Below are positions 22,401-49,400 of a stretch of DNA of 64,000 bases, piece after piece; position 1 is the stretch's first letter, and each line of letters starts with the position of its first letter. The DNA is taken from assembly GCF_000003815.2 (NCBI RefSeq), contig NC_049991.1:1781718-1845717 (forward strand), written 5' to 3'. A program made the position numbers and the translations under genes. The notes beneath the pieces were generated by a model. That model was not told the DNA's origin. It made no database searches and saw only the letters and a program-made list of their open reading frames with translations. This stretch comes from Branchiostoma floridae. Taxonomy: Eukaryota; Chordata; Leptocardii; Amphioxiformes; Branchiostomatidae.

Positions 22401-25400
22401 CAGAGCCAGGGCCGCTAACCACTGGACTACGCACGCTACCGTGTGTGCTGGTGTGTGTGTTGCGAACTAGTATGTGCACTGTATATAAAAATGTTAAATA
22501 GATGAATATAGAGTTGTCCCTCACCATGACCTTGGTGTCTCCGTACCCATGTTTCTGTGCCAGGTTCCACAAGTTGACGGCCAGTGAGCCCATCTTGCCC
22601 GGCCCCACATCACCGTGTACCACCATCTTGGTGAAGAACTCCAGCGCTAGAGCCGACTGTCTCCTCAGAGCCTGTTGTACAACAATTTATAACACTTTCA
22701 CTTTAAGCTTGCTCTCAACATTCTTAGTCAGTGTTCTCGCCAGCCTGTAAGTTTTTTTCTCTTCCCTTGATTTTGAATGGAAATCCTATAGAAGGCAACA
22801 ATCCTAGGCGGGTCCGGGGGCATGCTCCCCGGAAAAATTCTAAAATCTAGACCCTCTGAAATGCTCTTTCCTTTATTTTGAGGTGAAATTTAGCTGGTAG
22901 ACTCAGCTTGGTTCAATTAATATCTTAACATGCCAATTTTTGTCCGTCACAGAGGACGGAATAGGCTAAATTTTTTTCCGTCCCCAGCTGCAAAATTTTG
23001 TCAAAGGACAGAAGGACGGACACTGGCTAGAACCCTGCATTGTACCATGCAATACTGTTGTGCAATAGAGTTCATTCATTGTTTTAACAATCTAAAAATA
23101 CAAATACAAAATACCTCCTGTTGCTGAAGGTGCTTGAGCTGCTCCAGTATCTCGGTGATGAGTGTGTTTGCGATCTGTTGGACCTCGTTCAGAAACTTGG
23201 GGTCGCTGCCGTACAGTCTGTCATTGGAGTCAACTGGGGAAAACAGAGGCAGTTGGAAACATCCACAGAAAACATATTTGGCTCTAGAATCTTTTAATAA
23301 CCTTGAACCTGTAGGTATAGATTCTGTACACATTGAAGTTCGCGGGGATTCAATTTCGCGGTAGCGGGAAAAGGGACTTTGCGCTGTGGTTTTAAGTTTG
23401 TGGTAGCACAATGCACAACTGTAACAGTAGTCTCTTACTGCCATGGAGAAATGTTTGCGGTGGTTTTAAGTTCGTGGTGATGGGGCCACCGCTAAAAACA
23501 CTAACATTTAACCACCACGAAAGTTTCTGCATTTACAGTATTACAGCCTCTATAATCTTTCGCAAGTTTTTACCATTTAGAAGATTACCAAAAGGCTACA
23601 TTTCTACTAAAATCACAAAACCCATGCACTCATTATGCAGAATGGGTGACACTGCCTTAAGCCCCGGTCACAAAGCGCGTACGATTTCTTGCGATGGTAT
23701 ATTCCGCATATCGTACGATGAGCGCAGTAAACCGCAGCTAAATCGTAAGCAAAATCAGCCATCGCAACGCATCGGATGGTGTTCAAAATTTTTCCAGCGT
23801 CGTACGATTTTTCACTTGTGTCTCTTTTGAATAGCCGCCTGGCCGCTTTTGTGCTTCTTCAACCAACAAAATGTGGACTTAGCTGTTGAATACCTTCCTA
23901 TAATGTATTTAACTGTAAAAATAGATTAAAAGAGACCATGACAACAAGAGCATTACAAGAAAAGTTCAAATCAAGCGTGAGTACTGGTATGATTATCTCG
24001 GCCTGCTTGCCGGCTCTACGTGTCAGGCTCTTTCGAAGATCGTATCATGATATGCTGTCAACAAAAAGATGCCATCATACAAAAATCATATCATAAGCAT
24101 TATATCATATATATTTCCGACTCATAGAGCCTGCCTTTATGTTCGAGCCGGTCCCCATGGTTATTACGATTATGGTAAACTGACCCAAGACCGACGAGAG
24201 CTGAGATTTGATCTAATTATAAACTCACGTGCATGAAGCGATCAAACAATTGTCTGCATCACCTGTGCGGGGCGCGCTGTTCTCTGGTTGCGACTGTGGC
24301 AGTTGCGACTGATATATTTTCGCTTTTCGTCAATATCCACAATATCAGGGAAAACTGAAACCATTACAACATGCTAACAATTATTAAATCTATAACCTCA
24401 TCAGTAGACAAAAATTGCCGTAATGAAGTCTGCTATGGGGGCAAATAAAATCTTACGACGATAGCGAAATTTTGAACATGTTCAAAATCCATTTCAGCTC
24501 TATTTTTCGCCATACGACGCTCCCCGATTTACTATGATTCACTGCGATTGACGCAGGCACGCTCTTATGACCTCATCGTACGATGCACTACGCGCTTTGT
24601 GACCACGGCTTTATATACTTAAACCATTGCTTCCGATTCTCCCCCGACTTACGACGCACTGCGCTTATCCTGCGCATCGGAAGGAATCGCAAGAAATTGT
24701 ACGCGCTTTGTGACCGGGGCATTAGAAGAAAAGTCAAACCCAACAAAAATACATTGTACTAAAGATAGTACCTTATAGCTGATTCAGAAACAAATTATCA
24801 GTGTATGATAATTTACTTCTTACTTTGACGGCACATGTAACTTGCTATTAGCCTTTGGATATGATTTAACAATAAATAACTGTAAGTTATGAGATTCAAA
24901 CTGTCTTTATTATACAGCTATGATAATCAGAATGTAATGACTGACCTTTGTTGACATGATACAAGTAATTCTCCTAGATGGTGAAATGAAAGGAAAAGAA
25001 TAATTAGTGGCATTGCATTAGGTAAGGCAATGTTTAAGCATGGCAACAGAAATTGTACAACTTCTCATTTGTAACACAATCTACAAATGTATGAGCTATA
25101 AAGCTTTATTTCTTGATTGTTCAAAGGTTGCCTGTAAGTCTAAAAATTGCCTTGGTCATATTTTCTACTTGAAATCTAACCAATCATAATGAATGGGGCT
25201 TGAAACAGGAGAAATTGGGCAGTTTTATAAAGAAAATTGTGCGATCAAAAGAACTTTGTGCATGTAGTACTGCAAAAAATTTCAGAGCATACAGACTAAA
25301 TTGTCACCGATTGACTGTCCTGGTGTGTGACAGAGGTTAAGGACTGCGATCTCTTTTGGTAGGTGCGTTTATAATCATGTTTATTACACTTTAGCCAAAG

Positions 25401-28400
25401 GCTATAATTCTTCCATGGCTCGGAATAAAAACATACATAATATATCATAAGATTAAGGAGTTCATGCATAATGTAATCATAACATAAGACATACATGAAA
25501 CACACATGCCTTGAGAACAAAGTTATATGGACTGAATAGTGATACAGGTACATGTGGGTTTGGATCTGAGAAACTAGTACCAAAAGCACAGTTTAAATGT
25601 ATATCTATGAGCTCGTAAATGTGATATTATTGTACAGTTGTTCTTATACCTGGCTCATAGCTGAGAGAAGACATGTCACACTCAGGTAGGACCTGACTTT
25701 AGCATCACTGTTGTTCTCACATGACTCATAGCTGAGAGAAGACATGTCACACTCAGGTAGGACCTGACTTTAGCATCACTGTTGTTCTTACCTGACTCAT
25801 AGCTGAGAGAAGACATGTCACACTCAGGTAGGACCTGACTTTAGCATCACTGTTGTTGTTCTCACCTGACTCATAGCTGAGAGAAGACATGTCACACTCA
25901 GGTAGGACCTGACTTTAGCATCACTGTTGTTGTTCTCACCTGACTCATAGCTGAGAGAAGACATGTCACACTCAGGTAGGACCTGACTTTAGCATCACTG
26001 TTGTTGTTCTCACCTGACTCATAGCTGAGAGAAGACATGTCACACTCAGGTAGGACCTGACTTTAGCATCACTGTTGTTGTTCTTACCTGACTCATAGCT
26101 GAGAGAAGACATGTCACACTCAGGTAGGACCTGACTTTAGCATCACTGTTGTTGTTCTCACCTGACTCATAGCTGAGAGAAGACATGTCACACTCAGGTA
26201 GGACCTGACTTTAGCATCGCTGTTGTTGTTACCTGACTCATAGCTGAGAGAAGACATGTCACACTCAGGTAGGACCTGACTTTAGCATCACTGTTGTTCT
26301 CACCTGACTCATAGCTGAGAGAAGACATGTCCCACTCAGGTAGGCCCTGACTTTAGCATCACTGTTGTTCTTACCTGACTCATAGCTGAGAGAAGACATG
26401 TCACACTCAGGTAGGACCTGACTTTAGCATCACTGTTGTTGTTCTTACCTGGCTCATAGCTGAGAGAAGACATGTCACACTCAGGTAGGACCTGACTTTA
26501 GCATCACTGTTGTTGTTACCTGGCTCATAGCTGAGAGAAGACATGTCACACTTAGGTAGGACCTGACTTTAGCATCACTGTTGTTCTCTTACCTGACTCA
26601 TAGCTGAGAGAAGACATGTCACACTCAGGTAGGACCTGACTTTAGCATCACTGTTGTTCTCACCTGACTCATAGCTGAGAGAAGACATGTCACACTCAGG
26701 TAGGACCTGACTTTAGCATCACTGTTGTTGTTCTTACCTGGCTCATAGCTGAGAGAAGACATGTCACACTCAGGTAGGACCTGACTTTAGCATCACTGTT
26801 GTTGTTCTTACCTGACTCATAGCTGAGAGAAGACATGTCACACTCAGGTAGGACCTGACTTTAGCATCACTGTTGTTCTCACCTGACTCATAGCTGAGAG
26901 AAGACATGTCACACTCAGGTAGGACCTGACTTTAGCATCACTGTTGTTGTTCTTACCTGACTCATAGCTGAGAGAAGACATGTCACACTCAGGTAGGACC
27001 TGACTTTAGCATCACTGTTGTTCTTACCTGGCTCATAGCTGAGAGAAGACATGTCACACTCAGGTAGGACCTGACTTTAGCATCACTGTTGTTGTTCTTA
27101 CCTGACTCATAGCTGAGAGAAGACATGTCACACTCAGGTAGGACCTGACTTTAGCATCACTGTTGTTCTCTTACCTGACTCATAGCTGAGAGAAGACATG
27201 TCACACTTAGGTAGGACCTGACTTTAGCATCACTGTTGTTCTTACCTGACTCATAGCTGAGAGAAGACATGTCACACTTAGGTAGGACCTGACTTTAGCA
27301 TCACTGTTGTTCTCTTACCTGGCTGAGCTGAGAGAAGACATGTCACACTTAGGTAGGACCTGACTTTAGCATCACTGTTGTTCTCTTACCTGGCTGAGCT
27401 GAGAGAAGACATGTCACACTTAGGTAGGACCTGACTTTAGCATCACTGTTGTTCTCTTACCTGACTCATAGCTGAGAGAAGACATGTCACACTCAGGTAG
27501 GACCTGACTTTAGCATCACTGTTGTTCTTACCTGACTCATAGCTGAGAGAAGACATGTCACACTCAGGTAGGACCTGACTTTAGCATCACTGTTGTTCTT
27601 ACCTGACTCATAGCTGAGAGAAGACATGTCACACTCAGGTAGGACCTGACTTTAGCATCACTGTTGTTCTTACCTGACTCATAGCTGAGAGAAGACATGT
27701 CACACTCAGGTAGGACCTGACTTTAGCATCACTGTTGTTGTTCTTACCTGGCTCATAGCTGAGAGAAGACATGTCACACTCAGGTAGGACCTGACTTTAG
27801 CATCACTGTTGTTGTTACCTGGCTCATAGCTGAGAGAAGACATGTCACACTTAGGTAGGACCTGACTTTAGCATCACTGTTGTTCTCTTACCTGACTCAT
27901 AGCTGAGAGAAGACATGTCACACTCAGGTAGGACCTGACTTTAGCATCACCGTTGTTGTTCTCACCTGACTCATAGCTGAGAGAAGACATGTCACACTCA
28001 GGTAGGACCTGACTTTAGCATCACTGTTGTTGTTCTCACCTGATTCATAGCTGAGAGAAGACATGTCACACTCAGGTAGGACCTGACTTTAGCATCACTG
28101 TTGTTGTTCTCACCTGACTCATAGCTGAGAGAAGACATGTCACACTCAGGTAGGACCTGACTTTAGCATCACTGTTGTTGTTCTTACCTGACTCATAGCT
28201 GAGAGAAGACATGTCACACTCAGGTAGGACCTGACTTTAGCATCACTGTTGTTGTTCTCACCTGACTCATAGCTGAGAGAAGACATGTCACACTCAGGTA
28301 GGACCTGACTTTAGCATCACTGTTGTTGTTACCTGACTCATAGCTGAGAGAAGACATGTCACACTCAGGTAGGACCTGACTTTAGCATCACTGTTGTTCT

Positions 28401-31400
28401 CACCTGACTCATAGCTGAGAGAAGACATGTCACACTCAGGTAGGACCTGACTTTAGCATCACTGTTGTTGTTCTTACCTGACTCATAGCTGAGAGAAGAC
28501 ATGTCACACTCAGGTAGGACCTGACTTTAGCATCACTGTTGTTGTTACCTGACTCATAGCTGAGAGAAGACATGTCACACTCAGGTAGGACCTGACTTTA
28601 GCATCACTGTTGTTCTTACCTGGCTCATAGCTGAGAGAAGACATGTCACACTCAGGTAGGACCTGACTTTAGCATCACTGTTGTTCTCTTACCTGACTCA
28701 TAGCTGAGAGAAGACATGTCACACTTAGGTAGGACCTGACTTTAGCATCACTGTTGTTGTTCTTACCTGGCTCATAGCTGAGAGAAGACATGTCACACTC
28801 AGGTAGGACCTGACTTTAGCATCACTGTTGTTGTTCTTACCTGGCTCATAGCTGAGAGAAGACATGTCACACTTAGGTAGGACCTGACTTTAGCATCACT
28901 GTTGTTGTTCTTACCTGGCTCATAGCTGAGAGAAGACATGTCACACTCAGGTAGGACCTGACTTTAGCATCACTGTTGTTGTTCTTACCTGGCTCATAGC
29001 TGAGAGAAGACATGTCACACTCAGGTAGGACCTGACTTTAGCATCACTGTTGTCCTCCCAGGTGTAGTTCTGCAGCACGTTGAGCAGGCCTCGGATCAGG
29101 TACAGCACACCCTGGTCTGGGTTATCCTGGGGGGGAGAAGGGGAGGGAGACATCAAATATTATCAGTCATTCTCTTTGACTACTCATGAGAAATCAACAG
29201 AAGCTATCACCTATAGTATAACAGCATGTGTTTAGTTCAGTGGTTAGCAGCCCTGCCTCTGGAACAAGGGGCTCTAAATTTGATTCCAGCTGTGTCACTC
29301 ACCCGACATGCATGCAGCTACTGGAAAGGGTTGCAGTTCTCAGGACAGGATGTTACACTGTAGGCTACTGTTTGTATAATTGTGCTTATCGAAAAGAGCT
29401 TTATCTGTCTTTTCTATCATGACCAGTTGAAGAATACATGTACTTCTTGCAAACTTGTAGTGTTTTTTAAAGGAATCGGACATGTCAGTATAGCGTATTT
29501 GATATGTTGTATATATATATAGTGTATATATACGTATATGTGAAATTTGTGATCATTACACAAAATTGCAATTCAGCTGTTAGGCTGCAACAGTTTTTTA
29601 ATCCAATAAACCATTTCTCTCTCTCTTTCTCTCTCTTATTAATAAGTGACCTAAACTAATTCAAGATCCCTTTCTTTTACTTTCACTTCCCCTTATCTAA
29701 GTTATCTATGAAACACAAGATACAAAGCCAAAAGGTAGTTACTCAAGTAACTGTACCGTATATGGTTTTGGAAACGGTCAGTTTCAAAAACCATATCCAG
29801 TTGCTTGAGTTACTACTTTTTGGCGTATCTTATTACCTGGATGTCTAAACCTACATCGATGTACAAGATACAAAGGATTTTTAGTTTATAAATACCAGTT
29901 GTTAAAATTTCCTGTAAATTGTATGATTGTCTTGTATCTTTGTTAGCTTGTATGTTTTAATGTCCTGAAGTCCAGGAAGATTAGCTACCTACAAATTATG
30001 TATGATAGCTTATGGGCTAAATTAAGTATCCAAGTATCCAAATGAAAGAAGCTGCAACATGCATTATAGATCATTGTTATAATGATATCATATCCTACAA
30101 GAAAGAATGAGTTGATTGAAAAGTTGTAGAGCTTACTGGCACGACCAGCAGGTTGGAGACAAAGTTGTTGATGTACTCTGCCAGGAGAGGTTCTGTGGAC
30201 CGCACCTTCCCGTCCACCTGGATGGTCCTGGGCACCTCAGGTAACAGGCCGATCGCTGCCTTCAGAAAGGCATCCCCTGAGAGGAATCAAAACAAAGCTA
30301 CGGTCACATCTGCAACGGTTGGTGTAGCCCCTGCCATGCTCTGAAGCCTCAAGTGGACAGACAGATACTGGGATGTACCTCTTGTAATCTCCAAGCAGAT
30401 CCTACGATGCCATAACTAGTATCAAAGCTGTCTAAGGCGTACAGCCAGCTTAAGGGAGTCAAACGGCCACCGGGGCTCCGGTCTCGTACACACTCCCAGG
30501 CCGGCTTCACTCCTCTGCCAGCTTTTGATACTATCTTCTGGTACTGTAGGATCTGCTTTGAGATGATACCTCTTGGTGTCTTCACAGATAGCTGACGGCG
30601 TCTGTTTGTGGCCAGGTCCTGGGTTCATTTTAATCGTTTTTAACAGTGAATTTGAAGAAATCCAGGTGCCCAGTCGTGCCCCAAAATAGCAAGGTAGCCG
30701 CAGGGTTCACGCCCAAAAGTGCAGAAAAACAGCCCCTAAACTACATGGAGGGGCCCCTTATTCCAACTGTGACAGTAGTATATTAAGTGGGTGAAGAAAA
30801 TGCAAGATTTCATTTTCTAACAAAGTACATGTACATGTACTAGTAACAGTCCAGAATAGCAAGTTAAAAAAGACAACCATTTTTCTTTTTTCTGTGTACA
30901 AATTGTATAATATTGATGACACAATATCAATATCTCTGATTTTGGTAACAAATTTTGTCTGATTTGTATTCTTCACCATGGCAACCTGGCTGCCATGGCA
31001 ACCCTACAGCCACACCCACCTTGTGTGAGAGCCCCGTTGACCAATGCCACCTGTCCTGACACCAGGTACAGGTTGAGTTGGGAGAAGATGTTGTTGATGG
31101 ATGGAATGGTGATGAAACTGTAGGCTGCACAGGCCTGGAAAACAGTACAAGAAAACATCTATAAAGGTTAGACATTGAGATATCTAAAGACAATTCAATC
31201 TCTACAACTGGACAAAATTCACTTTCGGATGTTTCAAGTCACCATTTATCATACTATTGCAATTTTGCATAATTAATTAGCTGACTTAGTTTCTGTGCGA
31301 TCAAGTTGCCTTGGACCATGTCCATATTTTTGTCATTTTTGGCAAATTATCCATCGATGATATCTTGAGAAATAATGAAGCATGAGCCACAATTTTTATG

Positions 31401-40400: not shown

Positions 40401-43400
40401 GTACGCATAGCCAGCCTCGGCCCAATCGACAAGGAGATCACCATTCCATTTCACGAAGTCCACACAAACATCGGCGGCCATTTTGACAAAGACACCGGAC
40501 ATTTCACCAGCCCGTTAAGGGCTGTCTACCACTTTAGCTTTAACTTTCTGAGCAGGTCTTCTGACTACAACCTGTTTGTTATTCTGAAGCACAATGGTCG
40601 TAAGATGACGTCCACATATGAAGGTAAAGGTAGGAGTGCGGGAGGGAGTGCCGTACTACTGTTAGAGAAGGGGGACAAGGTTTGGTTGGACTTAGCCAAG
40701 AATTACGCCATCTACGACAACAATAACAAGTATAGCTCCTTCTCAGGATTCCTTCTCTTCACTATGGAGGATGAAGAATTGTAAGGGGGTTGTGTCAAAG
40801 TGGCAGTAACAAAAAATTGCTTAAGACAATCAGTGTGTAAAAACACAAGGTAGAATATACACAAGGTACTGAACTGTAAACTTTATTCTGTTTCAAATAG
40901 TTTTATAGGTTTTCTTGTTTTTTCCTTTTTATTTTGGTTTGTTTTAAGTTAAAACCATTTAAGAGAACAAATCAGAAATGAATCAACAATCATGTAGGCT
41001 CTAACTGTACTGTGTATTATCAAATCTGTTAGACATTAAGATTTGTATGATTCTTATAATAAAAAATAAGACAGACAATTTGTTTGCCATTATAAAACAA
41101 TGAGAACAACTCACCCTAACAAACGCAGCAGTTTTCCTAGAGTGGTTGCCCTTCACCACCTTGTGTGTCTCCATGGAAAGTTGGTTCACTCGCTGGAATA
41201 GGAAAGATATTCTTAGCATAGTTACTCACAGAATACAGAATATAACGTGTTGTATTCTACATGTACACACACGCAACTTGTGTCTACACAAATATGCTAT
41301 CAATTATAATATAATAGTAGGAACTGTGCGACAAATCAGAAAGCACCCACCTGCACCAGCTCAATCAACACTGGCTCAAGGTTACTGAAGGTCGCCCTGG
41401 CTTCCACATAGAAACTCAGCTGTTGCTCAAAGTCTCTTCCAAAGGAAATCTGATTAAAAAAAAAGACCAATCAGGAGTCAGAGTTGAGAATCATTCCAGG
41501 AAAATAACCAATCAGGAGTCAGAGTTAGGAATCGTTCCAGGAAAATGACCAATCAGGAGTCAGAATTAGGAATCATTCCAAAAACATGACCAATCAAGAG
41601 TCAGAGTTAGGAATCATTCAAGGAAAATGACCAATCAGGAGTCAGAGTTAGGAATCACTCCAGGAAAATGAGTGAAAGATAAGCACTATGAAAGATAGAC
41701 ATCTGTCATCTAAAAACAGGTGAAGCTAGACTGAAGCACAGTACAGAAGAAAAGCAGATCTGCAGAAAAGGACTTAATGAAAAACTGAGTCAGCTTATTT
41801 ATATACATATGTTCCCTATGTGGCAGAGACTGTCATTCTTGTATAAGACTGTTTGGCCATAGTCGAAGCTGCAGGGCTGATCTAAGTGACATAGTATGAT
41901 TTTACCAGGGACAATAATGATCAACTGAGAACACATACATGTAATTATATCTAATTTCATGAATTTTGTACCCACCCTTCTGATGAAACCACAGATAAGA
42001 TTGGAGATGGCTCTCTTCTCATCTTCAAGTGTAAGTGCACTGTGGAAGCGAGAGGCATTTAGTAACTGATCAATCGACAGATAAACAGGAGTAGAAAGCA
42101 GTAAAGCATTATGTTTGCTAACATTTAAAGCACAATTAAAATGAAATTTCCTCTTGCCATTCTCTGGCATTTTCTACAATATGTTTGTGACTTCAAATAT
42201 CATTTATGTAAAACTTTGGTATTTTCTGAAAAAATATAAAAAGTATGTAACCTTTCAAATCAATTGTCTATTGTGTGCCCTTTGGTGGGACAAATAAGCA
42301 ACAAAGTGACGTCACAGAAAGGACTTCTATAGGCCTTTATGTACATACTTTATGGGAGCCTATGACACCTAGCGGCTTATAACAGAGATTACCACTTACA
42401 GTTACTTTCCTTTACAACCTTTTTATTTTGAATTCTCTCCACGCTTGCATCAGTTTTGGGTTTCCCAACGGATGTCATTCAGGCTATTAAATCAACATGG
42501 CCTAATTTTGCAGTTCTAGCCCGTAACGTGTGTACTTACTTGACAGAGTCGTGCATGGTCTTACAGATGAACATCAAGGCATTCATGATGACAGGATCAG
42601 ATGTTGTGTCCTGCTGAACCCTGTACAAAAGAAAAGATTTGTCTGTCAGTCCTTAATTGTTCTCTTCTGACCTATTCTTAAAACATTTGTGACACACAAT
42701 AAATTTTTAAGTTTAAGTTATCATCATAGTCAGTATCTGAGCCAATGTCCCAACCAATGTTGTACCTATATTTTCCAAGACATCTCAATTCTGTATTCTT
42801 CCTGAGCACAAAAAGCGTTAAGGGCAACTAAAGAACTACCTTTCTCCTGGGAGTTTCCTATGAACAGTCCTAGAAAAAGACATCTTGAAATTGTATAATT
42901 CTCATTCTGAGTAATAATTAGATACAAACAAGTTACAAACGTACTAAGTGAGAAGTTTGTGTTATATAGCAGTTTACCACATTGGAAGAAGGGCACAAAT
43001 TGTTTTAAAAAAGAATTTTACAGAGTTAAAGCGGTATGTAATGTAAGAGCTACAAAACAAGACACAATACAACACTGTGACAACACAAGTCAATACACAA
43101 ACAGTACACAGTTAGTAACCACAAACACCCTAAGGCTTCTAAGTCTCCTTGCCTTTTCTTGTAACCAGCTGTATACAGGGCACCCGGTCTAGCACCGCTG
43201 GGGGAGGGACATAATCATAGCTGCAATCACTCATCAAATCATAATCATCCAGTAATCATAATCAAAATCAACATTCAAAAACTTAAGGAATTTATCATAA
43301 GAAATTAGTGAGTCTCAGGAAATAAAAATTATTGCATAATACTAATTGGTAAAATGATACACATCTTCCAAACAAAATAATTGGAGGGGATTCCAAAGAT

Positions 43401-46400
43401 AATTTATGTATAATAACAAATTCATCCAGTAATCAATAAGATAAATCAAAATCACCATTCGCAAACGTTGACTAAGGAATCGATCATATTAGAAATCAGT
43501 GACTCATGAAATAAAAATGATTGCATGTTATGCATTTTGCAAACAAAATCACTGAAGGAGAAAATTGTATACTTATTAGATATAGTTGTGCATACTATGT
43601 TTTCTTGGGTGGGTAGGATATGAATGATACACATCATTCTGTATTATCATGAAAGTAATGCTATGGCTGTCAGTTCAACAAAACCATAATGATTATTAAT
43701 ATACTCTTTACCTTGTGAATGTTTCCATCACAGTTTTGCACACTTCCACCTTGACTGACTCTTTTTGGAACATGTCAATAAAAGGCAGGAATTTGTCCTG
43801 AAATAGAAAAAGCAAAATATATATATTATACAAGCCATGTACTAGTTCAATATAACTATATCATAGATTCAATGAGTTTATGAGAGAAAATTAGTACAAT
43901 CATATATAATCATAGCAATTCAAGCATCACATAGCTTTTTATTACATGATTGTACAAATTTCTACAATTACTCAATGACATAACAACTTCAGCCTTATCA
44001 TTATATATATATTATGACATTTTTAATATGTTGTGATCACTTTAGATTACCATAAAAGTATGTAATTATTCATATATTATACCTTTCATCACAATTCCAC
44101 ATAATTATATAAACCACTTTGATTATTATAATTCAGCACCATGATGTATGTCTATTTTGTGTCTGCAAATGTTGTTAAAAACACTAATATCATGACAAAA
44201 TGATTATGTGGTGCTCTGTTCTCCAACTCGAGATATAGTAACCAGAAAGTCTACAAGTATATAAAAATGATGACCTTACCATGGAAAACAGCACAGCAAA
44301 GTCATGCATGTGAGACAGCACCTTGGTCACGATGGACTGCAACTGTCATAGGAAGAATGAAATTGATTTCTGTATCTGTATCTACATAGCCGGTATAACC
44401 GCCGTTCGGCGTAACACACCAGCTTCACAGGCACACGGTGCGGCAGCAGCTGGTTATATTACACTGAACGACCCGTCACACCTAACTTTTGCACATCCAT
44501 CTGCAAGCGTTCTTTAAAGCTATCCAGTGAAGATGCCCCTACTGTACTTGGTGATAACAAATTCCACTCAACGATAGTTCTGGGAAATAATACATTGTAT
44601 AGTCCCAATTATTCCAAACCAATAAACTAGCATTATAATTTACATGAACTTGGATGCCTTTTCCAATAACTTCTATACACATGTTTGCTATGACAACAAA
44701 TCACTACATTTAGCTGCTGTAGGGCTTCAAATCATTTACTTTAATTTGTTGTTTTATTTTGCAGTATACATGTATATACATATACTGCAACATAAAACAA
44801 TATAATTTATTGTAAATGTATGAAATTAGTACCTGTGGGTAGAAGTCCTCAAAGGCTCTGTCTGGAACCATGTGTTTGATGATGTCACCAAGAATGGTGT
44901 TCACTTCACGTTTCTGGTGATGTAGTACACGGGAAAAACACCATGATGTTAGATCTTCTGATGTTGTTAAATTCAGTGCTACAATTGGTAGAAACAGAAT
45001 ACGAAAGAAAGTGCTATCTCTTCAAGGCAAACATAACCTACCGTGAAATGTTTGCAGGGATATTCAATCCAAACTTCAGCACAAGCAATGTAGTTCTGTG
45101 AAAGAAAGGCACAAAATAAAGACGTTATCAGAAGTTTACAGTGTGAGATCTACTTGTCTGTGTTTCATTTACATCTCCAGCAAAACCCAGCACATATTCT
45201 TTTGGTACTTCTGAGAATGGTTCAAAATGTAAGTGACTTGGTAGTGGATGTGCTTCATTCTTCTTTTATTGGGCATAAGTTTAACTAGGTAACTATCACT
45301 TCTACGCACTTCAGCAGATTATAATGATGAGCATTTGCTAGGAATTGGACAGGTCTCTCTAGCAAAGTTTGGATAAATCCTACCTAAGGATAAGTGAAAT
45401 GAATACATTATAATTGAATACATGTATGAAAAATAATTATCAAGTCAATTCCCTATCTGTAGAGTAAGGAAAAACACAAATACTTACTGCAGGGTTCTTT
45501 AGCTTCATCACCACCTTCCACACCTGTGGGATATAGGAAACAACACTCAATCACACAGGGCAGTAACACACTCACAACAATATAGAAGTCCATCAGGAAA
45601 CTACACAGTATATACATAATGTACCTTAAAAAATTGCCATGATGTAGCATTGGTACCAGTAGCTCAGTCAGCAGTGCAGCTGTCTATGATGCTAGAGGAC
45701 GAACCTTTGAATGCCCCACCATGAAGGTTTTTTTTTATTTATTCTTCTTTTTACGTTTGCAATCAGCCTTTTAAAGTTCTTTTCTGTCCATCTCGGTGTG
45801 AGTGAATCAGTTCAGTTTTAGCCAGCTTGTACTTTATCTACAACTGAGTGTTACATGTAAAGGAAGTTTACAACTTATACAAAACAAACAAACAAACACA
45901 CTAAAATCAGCCATTTACACACCTCGTTCAGTGTCTGCAGCCGCTGTTCTTCAGGAGGGTCAGCCAGCACCATGTTGGCACCCAGGGAGGCGTACAGCTC
46001 GTGCTGGGGAGGAACAGCCATGTCAAGGTCATTAAGGACTAAGTATGTACACAGCTGTGTCAGCGTGAATGGAAACTCAGCACTAAGGACAGCAATGTCT
46101 ATGTGATTGTGAATTCAGCATGATAGACAGCAGCTGTAAGTGTGATTCTGAATTCAGCTTATGGAACAGCAGCTGTCAGCACCAGGGATAGCAGTGTCTA
46201 TGTGATTTTGAATTCAGCACCAGGAACAGCAGCTATCTATGTGATTGTAAATTCAGCACTAAGGACAGCAGCTATCTATGTGATTGTAAATTCAGCATTA
46301 AGGACAGCAGCTATCTATGTGATTTTGAATTCAGCACCAGGAATAGCAGCTATCTATGTGATTGTGAATTCAGTACCTGGGACAGCAGGTGTCAGTGTGA

Positions 46401-49400
46401 TTGTGGATTCAGCTTATGGAACAGCAGCTGTCAGTGTGTTTGTGAATTCAGCACCAAGGACAGTAGCTGCCAATTTGGATGTGAATTCAGCTGAGAACAG
46501 CAGCTGTGTCAGAGTGAGTGTGAATTCAGCACCAGGGACAGCAGCTTTCAGTGCGACAGTTGTATCACGGTCAATGTGAATATACCATCAGGGACAGCAA
46601 AGTCAGTGTGGTTGTAGATTTAGCACTTGGTAAAGCTGTGTAAGTGTGGATGCAAAATATAATATCTTAACACATGAACAATGTTCTTACCTTGGGGAAG
46701 CCTGCCTCCTCACAGTCCCTGATGGTGTCCACAAACTTCAGGGCGCGGCTGGCGATGTAGTCTGGCTTAAAGGCTGACATGATGGAGTTCAGCAGCAAGG
46801 CACTGTGGGAAGGAAATATTTGGGTCAAAGTAGAGCTGACAGTGTTTTCCAATGATAATGTACAATGCTCCAACTTCAGAGCTCTTGCTAGGGCTTCAGT
46901 CCCAATTTCATCAGGTAGGCAAGTCACTACTGAAGAACAAATTACTGTAAATGCAGAAATGTTCGCGGTGGATTAAAGTTCGCGGTTTTCACGGTGACCA
47001 CTTCACCGCAAACTTAAAACCACCGCGAACATTTTTCTATTATGGTATTAAACTGCAGTCTATAGTGTTACCGCGAACTTAAATCTACCGCGAAAAGTCC
47101 TTTTACCCGCTACCGCGAAATTAAATCCCTGCGAACTTAATGCATTTACAGTATACTTTGCATTTGGAACTGCAACTGTTAGCAGCGCCACCTATGCTGC
47201 AGTGCAACGTGAACCAATGTCAGAACCATCCTCAGGAAGAGGATATACGGTCACCAAAACACTTACTAGTTGTATTCTTGCCAGGGCTTATTATTTTAAC
47301 ACAGTTCCCACACTTGCAAAAGTCTGTAATAAGAAAAAAAAGACTGAAGAACACACTTACCTGTTACATTGCTTCTTACAATGTTCCAGTACTTCTGTCA
47401 TTGTGTCCTATTGAGCAACACAACAATATTGGCCATCATTGTTAACTTTACTACATAAAACAGATATTCATATTATACATGTATGGGATTAAATAAAAAA
47501 GAAAACTGAACTAACTAGAATTTACATGCATATGGCCCATTTCTAACTACATTTCTTTTCGTGCGTGTGCTTGCTATTTGCCATTAATACCACAGAAACC
47601 ATTTATACTATGCCTTTGGCATGTTGTCAGTTGATACTCTTCAAACCAAACACCTATCCAATACGACCGCTTTTGCTTGGTCCACTGGCTGGTCGTCTTG
47701 AGCAGGTTTGACTGTATATAAGATAACATAGTAAACACTATGTGACCTCTGACCTCTGATGCCCGATGAGCCACACACTGTAGTATCCAGTCCAGTGCAG
47801 GTGTGTACAGGTGCAGGTACTGGGCCATCTCCAGCTGTTGTACAGCCAGGATGTTCTGTACACTGTCACTCTGCAGCTGTGAGACATAGAACAGGTGTTA
47901 CAGGTGTTACAGGTGTGTACAGGTGCAGGTACTGAGCCATCTCCAGCTGTTGTACAGCCAGGATGTTCTGTACACTGTCACTCTGCAGCTGTGAGACATA
48001 AAACAGGTGTTACAGGTGTAGATATACTGTGCATTGCCATGTTATATTGCAACTGTGAAACATGTAACAATGTGTACAACTATTACAGGTGCTTATACAT
48101 GTAGGTGTTACAGGTGTATATACATGCGGGGTTTACAGACCTTTACAGGTGCATATGTCATTATTCAGGTGCATACAGGTGTGAAATATGCATATAGGTG
48201 ATCACATGTGCATATAGATTTTACATGAAAGGCAGATTTAGATCATGAAAATTTGTCGCTAAGTGTAAATGATGCCATAAATGACACATCTCATTTCAAA
48301 TAGCCCAGACTCACCTGTTTGTAAGTCGCGAGAAAGTCGTACAGGTTGATGGCCACATGATCATGCACTTCAGGTGCAACCAAGATTCCCACCTGCAACA
48401 AAAAAAGACTGAAACTGACTCCAATGCCTACCCAAAAAAAGGCTATGCAGGGCTCGAAATACCACCTGCAGGTTAGTGCAGGTAAAATTGGAGCTGTGCA
48501 GGTATTTCTGGTGTCTACCTGCACTTAACCTACACTGGTCCATGTACTGGGTTTTATACATAATGTCCTATGATGTAGGTGTGTATGGATTGTTATCAGC
48601 TGCATTGGCTGTTACCACCATTAAGTTTAAAAGAAAAAAGTAGCAATGGTTCCTCAACAATTTTAGTATGATCCATACTTCCTAAATTCAGAGTGGTGCA
48701 GGTAAAATTTGTCTGGTGCAGGTAATTTTCAATGTTACCTGCACCGGTGCAGGTATGCAGAAAAAAGTATTTTGAGCCCTGCTATGGTTGGTAGGTGCAG
48801 TATATACATTGTGGGTCAGGAAACAGGAAACTACATTTTTTCCCTAGGTCTAACCTCGGCCAGTGACATCTTTGTGAGCCTTCATAATTATGCGTCTTGA
48901 TATGACACATTTTAAGCCTAATTGATTCACTTCTAGTTAGAAGAAAAAAAAATAACACAAAACTATGAAAAAAATGTATGTTCATATTTCAGCCACTCAC
49001 TTTTTGTACCATGGGGTAGATATCTATTTGGTCTGGTTTTGGTTTCTTTAAAAAGAAAAAAAAAGAGAAAAAATAATTCTCTTAGTAAAAGAAGTGATGA
49101 ACACTTGTTCCTTATCCTTTGGAAACAAACAGCGAGTTCCAAAGAAAATGTTATTAAACATAACAGCCTAATGCAACAAAACAAACAAAATAGAATAAAA
49201 AAATTCTAAAAGATTATTAAATATGATTCATAAAGCAAGAACAGCAAAAATGACAATAAAATTGTGATAAAATTGAAAACTTTTCTGTCCTGCACCTAGA
49301 GTGGAAATACAAATCTGTTCGTAAGGCAGTACCAATTTGATTAAACAACAAATTTTCTTGGTTCTCGGAATTTTTCCACAAAACAGTCACTGTGACAGGG

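Follow-up and report, generated by a model that had tools for sequence, protein, structure and literature searches.

A 4,015-nt intron of the lancelet gene VPS35L is largely occupied by tandem copies of the end of the preceding exon, each carrying its own 5' splice site. The gene is read here from the minus strand of a 64,000-nt stretch of Branchiostoma floridae DNA (assembly GCF_000003815.2, contig NC_049991.1, positions 1,781,718 to 1,845,717 of the forward strand), which we call the window and whose positions are used throughout. The array lies at 25637..29053 (-) and comprises 47 copies of a 71-74-nt unit, 46 of which are intronic. It belongs, as a genuine and very large example, to the mirages, a class of amphioxus repeats that has already been published, and is not a new kind of object. 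Judging from the sequence, we consider it very probable that this large donor-side mirage minisatellite began with a duplication seeded by microhomology, expanded by unequal exchange, and is tolerated through exon definition, which would select the innermost splice site.

The original prediction, made from the letters of the window alone, had placed about 46 tandem copies of the exon end and its 5' splice site in this intron. Two counts agree with it: Tandem Repeats Finder (TRF) reports a period of 74, 47.0 copies, 95% matches and a score of 6011 over positions 25637-29053, and a script that cuts the array at an invariant word finds 47 anchors. The 46 spacings between anchors are of 74 nt (21 times), 71 nt (20 times) and 73 nt (5 times); a 69-nt unit, the lower end of the predicted range of 69 to 74 nt, was not seen. 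Each unit consists of about 65 nt of exon followed by 6-9 nt of intron start, so that the CAG|GTAAGA junction of a 138-nt exon is repeated head-to-tail on the minus strand. The units are very similar, with a mean pairwise identity of 97.8% and a minimum of 91.5% among the 46 full units compared without gaps, and these 46 fall into 18 distinct sequences. The donors are likewise nearly equal from unit to unit, as had been claimed: GT is preserved in 47/47 units and AG|GT in 46/47, the donor reading CAGGTAAGA in 28 of the 47, CAGGTGAGA in 12, CAGGTAACA in 5, and CATGTGAGA and CAGGTATAA in one each. The distal copy, number 47 (25637..25677, minus strand), has the donor CAG|GTATAAGAACAACTGTAC and is followed by unrelated intron sequence. 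The intron itself, delimited from the sequence, extends over 24974..28988 (-), and the intronic share of the array, 28988-25637, takes up about 83% of it.

The exon from which the array derives is the VPS35L coding exon at 28989..29126 (-), 138 nt long and reading DNPDQG...SAMSQ, identified by homology to human VPS35L with boundaries taken from the sequence; its last 65 nt or so form the exon-side part of copy 1. The next coding exon, a microexon of 28 nt at 24946..24973 (-) that reads ENYLYHVNK, adjoins the array-bearing intron on its other side. When the two exons are joined, their translation can be aligned with no gap to human VPS35L, residues 788-842 (E 1.4e-19). Reading past the first donor in the frame of the exon leads to a TGA at 28949-28947, as had been predicted, and the use of every later donor would include this stop in the transcript. 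Since the homology is gapless and the TGA precedes all later donors, the evidence supports the exon-proximal donor, with first intron base at 28988 (-) and junction CAG|GTAAGAAC, as the real, protein-making donor of VPS35L, in line with the prediction that it alone would give the full protein. The anatomy of the junction, together with the VPS35L homology, also supports the earlier description of the array as a minisatellite derived from a coding exon. Farther downstream in VPS35L there is an open frame from which a stretch of 14 amino acids can be read, which appears to resemble the continuation of the human protein.

Three other accounts of the array were considered and rejected. As translated sequence it fails, with stops in all three frames within 400 nt from the exon start. 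As a dispersed repeat it fails as well: the 48 matches of the 74-nt unit found (at least 48, in the assembly of 513,431,437 bases) are all inside the VPS35L array. Finally, the array did not create the intron. The acceptor AG of the intron ends at 24974, about 660 nt past the array, in sequence that is unlike the unit; because this acceptor lies outside the array, the duplication lengthened a pre-existing intron.

Tandem repeats across exon/intron boundaries in amphioxus are termed mirages in the excerpts of PMC3087553 on which we draw, with Adh3 and the globins BflGb6 and BflGb9 as examples; the name is credited there to work on Adh3. The VPS35L array shares the marks of the class: its unit spans the exon/intron boundary of a lancelet gene, AG/GT splice signals are kept in many units, and an intact exon is left. 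Both donor-side and acceptor-side forms occur among the published mirages, as they do in VPS35L. The difference is one of size, with 47 copies over 3.4 kb in VPS35L against 6 and 3 units in the two haplotypes described for BflGb6 (PMC3087553), and 2-7 copies of the repeats over splice sites of PGBD5 that the quoted part of PMC3902484 likens to mirages. The BflGb6 mirage also shows homogenisation within the cluster that leaves out the cluster boundaries, whereas in VPS35L the part of copy 1 that spans the junction has the same sequence as inner units, and it is the distal units 46 and 47 that differ from the rest. As for splicing, Adh3 data and reverse transcription polymerase chain reaction on the globins suggest that it is regular at mirages (PMC3087553), and the Adh and troponin C (TnC) mirages are said, in the passages of PMC3902484 used here, to yield no aberrant mRNAs. 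A partial text of the amphioxus huntingtin paper (PMC2206037) reports tandem repeats in scaffolds, and mirages are not mentioned in that part.

A related process, intron gain by tandem duplication of exon segments that bear AGGT, is named in the same excerpts of PMC3087553. The resemblance is that an exon stretch with a donor is duplicated; the difference is that in intron gain both splice sites come from the duplicated unit, which is not so for the VPS35L intron.

How might such an array begin? The motif ACAAC of distal copy 47 also stands in the exon at GGACAACAG, where the exon side of the unit starts, and this shared ACAAC is a plausible, even likely, seed of the first duplication. In the proposed founder state the intron would have had no array, with GTATAAGAACAAC directly after the exon. 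A tandem duplication between the ACAAC in the exon and the ACAAC just inside the intron would have placed in the intron a copy of the last 65 nt or so of the exon together with its 5' splice site, and the number of copies would then have risen to 47 by unequal exchange.

The order of the units carries traces that may be read in the same way. If the units are reduced to simplified types, blocks recur along the array, units 9-13 with 38-42 and units 16-19 with 34-37: identical blocks of 4 units come in 3 pairs where 0.023 would be expected, a number that 0/1000 permutations reach, and the longest repeated block, of 5 units, is reached in 1/1000 permutations. This recurrence, observed within one assembly, would be indirect support for an unstable copy number. 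Units 1-4 alternate between two types, and the distal units 46 and 47 are unlike the rest. Unit 1 as cut, which covers the true junction (28 nt on its exon side, 46 nt on its intron side), has exactly the sequence of units 3, 18, 32 and 36, in keeping with an exchange that took in the edge of the exon. The commonest substitutions in the exon part, AGC/AGT (T in 32/47) and CTG/CTA (A in 8), are both synonymous in the exon frame, a pattern of silent change that is suggestive at most.

Several observations weigh against this account of origin and tolerance. The microhomology is 5 nt long and could be due to chance. When units are compared by their exact sequences, no repeated block exceeds 3 units, a length reached in 311/2000 permutations, so that the signal of recurrence depends on leaving out rare changes. 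Shared changes are not all silent, since units 23 and 24 have in common a small deletion in the exon part that would break the frame, and single changes of both kinds are borne by units 14, 15, 37 and 39. Clean removal of mirages may also not be universal: the Joint Genome Institute (JGI) gene model takes the PGBD5 repeats as exon, according to the excerpt of PMC3902484.

The tolerance of the array would follow from exon definition. An exon would be defined by the closest pair of acceptor and donor, so that splicing would take the exon-proximal donor and the remaining array would leave with the intron; PMC9225289 states that, with large flanking introns, the splice sites closest across the exon are favoured. 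The array would thus be tolerated because exon definition selects the innermost site. Under this rule a donor-side array should be spliced at its first donor and an acceptor-side array at its last acceptor.

VPS35L itself offers a case of the second kind. At 47798..48019 (-) lies a second, acceptor-side mirage, with two copies, 112 nt apart, of the intron end TCACAG and the exon start (TRF, 98% match). The first exon base is 47876 for the proximal acceptor and 47988 for the distal copy, and the exon corresponds to human VPS35L 369-408 (E 1.1e-8). Splicing to the upstream acceptor would run into a stop, and so the innermost site alone would serve there too. Two other arrays in the window may be recorded here: one of 41 nt x 5.2 at 41460-41671, ending close to what looks like an acceptor (TTTTTAATCAG|ATTTCC) on its upstream side and apparently intronic only, and a degenerate one of 39 nt at 46077-46546, flanked by two apparent exons, for which the longest TRF row gives 9.5 copies.

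Looking beyond the window, the same assembly holds mirages on both sides of one Adh3 exon (locus L040, 1125-1529 and 1715-2038; Pfam ADH_N, 1.9e-18): the acceptor-side array is of 59 nt x 6.9 and the donor-side array of 33 nt x 9.8. Triplets of donor-like words were then counted over the genome, bearing in mind that the places counted overlap within arrays and are not independent. The triplet of AGGTRAG occurs at 2006+1488 = 3494 places against 175+184 = 359 for the reversed pattern, and that of AGGTAAG, its words 45-75 apart, at 876+544 = 1420 places against 84+106 = 190 for the reverse; a control matched in dinucleotides, AGTAAGG three times, gives 214+381 = 595 places, with 66+79 = 145 reversed. 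Single words in the window outside the array (AGGTAAG 8, AGTAAGG 7, GAATGGA 13) are too few to give a background. On one contig, C1, the AGGTAAG places were grouped into arrays by us, from the 100 of the 1420 that were listed. Among these matches there are 15 AGGTAAG arrays up to 26.2 Mb, and among the control matches listed there are 6 AGTAAGG arrays; in at least 2 of these, the ones near 207 kb and near 822 kb, donor-like words occur as well. The excess of AGGTAAG arrays over the control is modest.

The donor-upstream edge was inspected for all 15 of the C1 arrays, and 8 of them, among the matches listed, coincide with the junction of a coding exon that is supported by homology. Five are on exons like those of PSMC1 (L059, around 1135; PDB 2.5e-39), TMEM237 (Pfam 5e-28; 13 exact donors), PKC (L054; PDB 1e-23; donor-side), DYNC1H1 (PDB 3e-13; 34 exact donors over 2.2 kb) and CHEK1 (PDB 4e-10). 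An exon of an axonemal dynein (L049; PDB 7e-12) bears an array that reads CAGGTAAGA on one strand and is an acceptor-side array on the other. A TPR exon has a Pfam match at 0.002, below the cut-off, with PDB matches to TPR proteins from 3e-12, and a TIL-domain exon has one at 1e-4, below the curated cut-off. One more array, L056, adjoins a possible exon without Pfam match, and for six others no junction was found, either in a frame scan that gave no Pfam match (L050) or among open frames only (L048, L052, L053, L055 and L058). On the side of the PKC exon opposite its donor array there are also apparent repeated acceptors (CTGCAG|GTGATGCTG).

The VPS35L array is the largest of those examined and, given the DYNC1H1-like case, not alone in its scale. 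The occurrence of arrays on DYNC1H1-, PSMC1-, CHEK1-, PKC- and TMEM237-like exons suggests that a common process of this genome is at work, rather than a peculiarity confined to some few genes. Searches of an open-licence library showed no genome-wide count of mirages. If C1 is typical, a rough extrapolation would put the number of such arrays in the whole genome at a few hundred, with about half of them on exons; C1 is, however, uneven, with 7/15 of its AGGTAAG arrays, among the matches listed, in the first 4.5 Mb. The PSMC1 array bears on the choice of donor as well: its exon-adjacent donor, GTAAAG, is farther from consensus than the downstream GTAAGG copies, so that position would outweigh strength if splicing takes place there.

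An alternative to selection of the innermost site is that the array erases itself. Each CAG|GT could be dual-specific, so that donor 1 joins the CAG of an inner unit, restoring the junction, and the array is removed stepwise with the mRNA unchanged. The presence of AG|GT in nearly all units agrees with this idea, and the human UBC gene is reported, in the part of PMC10809524 consulted, to be spliced through a tandem array of dual-specific AGGT sites. The UBC array resembles that of VPS35L in its AGGT placed head-to-tail at unit boundaries; however, the UBC units are ubiquitin monomers retained in the mRNA, and the VPS35L copies are intronic, stop-bearing and, with spacings of 71, 73 and 74, for the most part in differing frames. 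Each such GT is preceded, at a distance of 11 nt, by another AG (TCTCTCAG), which would be an expected competitor. The pyrimidine fraction in the 20 nt before the unit CAGs is 0.65, equal to that of the second-mirage acceptor (0.65) and above the background of 0.50, but it is far higher at the acceptor of the exon itself (1.0, measured one base off) and at that of the next exon (0.85); this content would neither strongly support dual-specific use nor exclude it. On balance we hold stepwise erasure to be very unlikely.

Innermost selection of a passive array must also be compared with a role in splicing control, in which decoy donors or U1 binding would slow the intron or shield it from early polyadenylation. 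The original prediction had offered a donor decoy, a splice-rate modulator and an RNA sponge for U1 among its options, and the strength of the donors is in favour of such roles: 28/47 match the consensus CAGGTAAGT at 8/9 positions. Yet donor 1 is not distinctive in its accessibility, 0.027 against a median of 0.020 over the 47 donors, and the RNA of two units has no unusual fold (z +1.04 against shuffles, 171/200 of which fold at least as well), both tests being weak ones; a special RNA structure is rejected on the same figures. Moreover, similar arrays with unrelated units occur in other genes, which indicates a mutational process. A controlling role is thus most unlikely, and none of the three proposed functions found support. 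The remaining option of the prediction, a simply tolerated expansion, is the best supported, by the regular splicing of published mirages and the recurrence of arrays on PSMC1-, DYNC1H1- and CHEK1-like exons: duplication and unequal exchange would have left the VPS35L array behind as a by-product that is tolerated, and we found no function for it.

That the copy number, or the whole array, comes from misassembly is very unlikely in our view: tandem repeats are prone to it, one haplotype of the BflGb6 mirage seems to be aberrant in the draft assembly (PMC3087553, in excerpt) and the exact number of copies is not secured, but the 18 distinct sequences among full units stand in non-random order, the distal junction of the array is unique, and the same assembly has mirages at Adh3, a published mirage gene.

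A bolder proposal is that the lancelet duplicates splice junctions habitually and throughout its genome, that the exons affected number in the order of hundreds and include some of basic cell machinery, and that dual-specific stepwise erasure makes the duplications harmless. We consider this whole quite unlikely; if it were true, the arrays would be a standing source of new introns and of alternative exon ends. The part worth pursuing is the probable broad spread of the mirage class in the lancelet genome. Every array of this kind tests, in nature, how splice sites are chosen, with dozens of near-identical donors in cis of which one must be used. Donor-side arrays require the first donor and acceptor-side arrays the last acceptor, so that the innermost pair should always be chosen, just as exon definition cleanly predicts.

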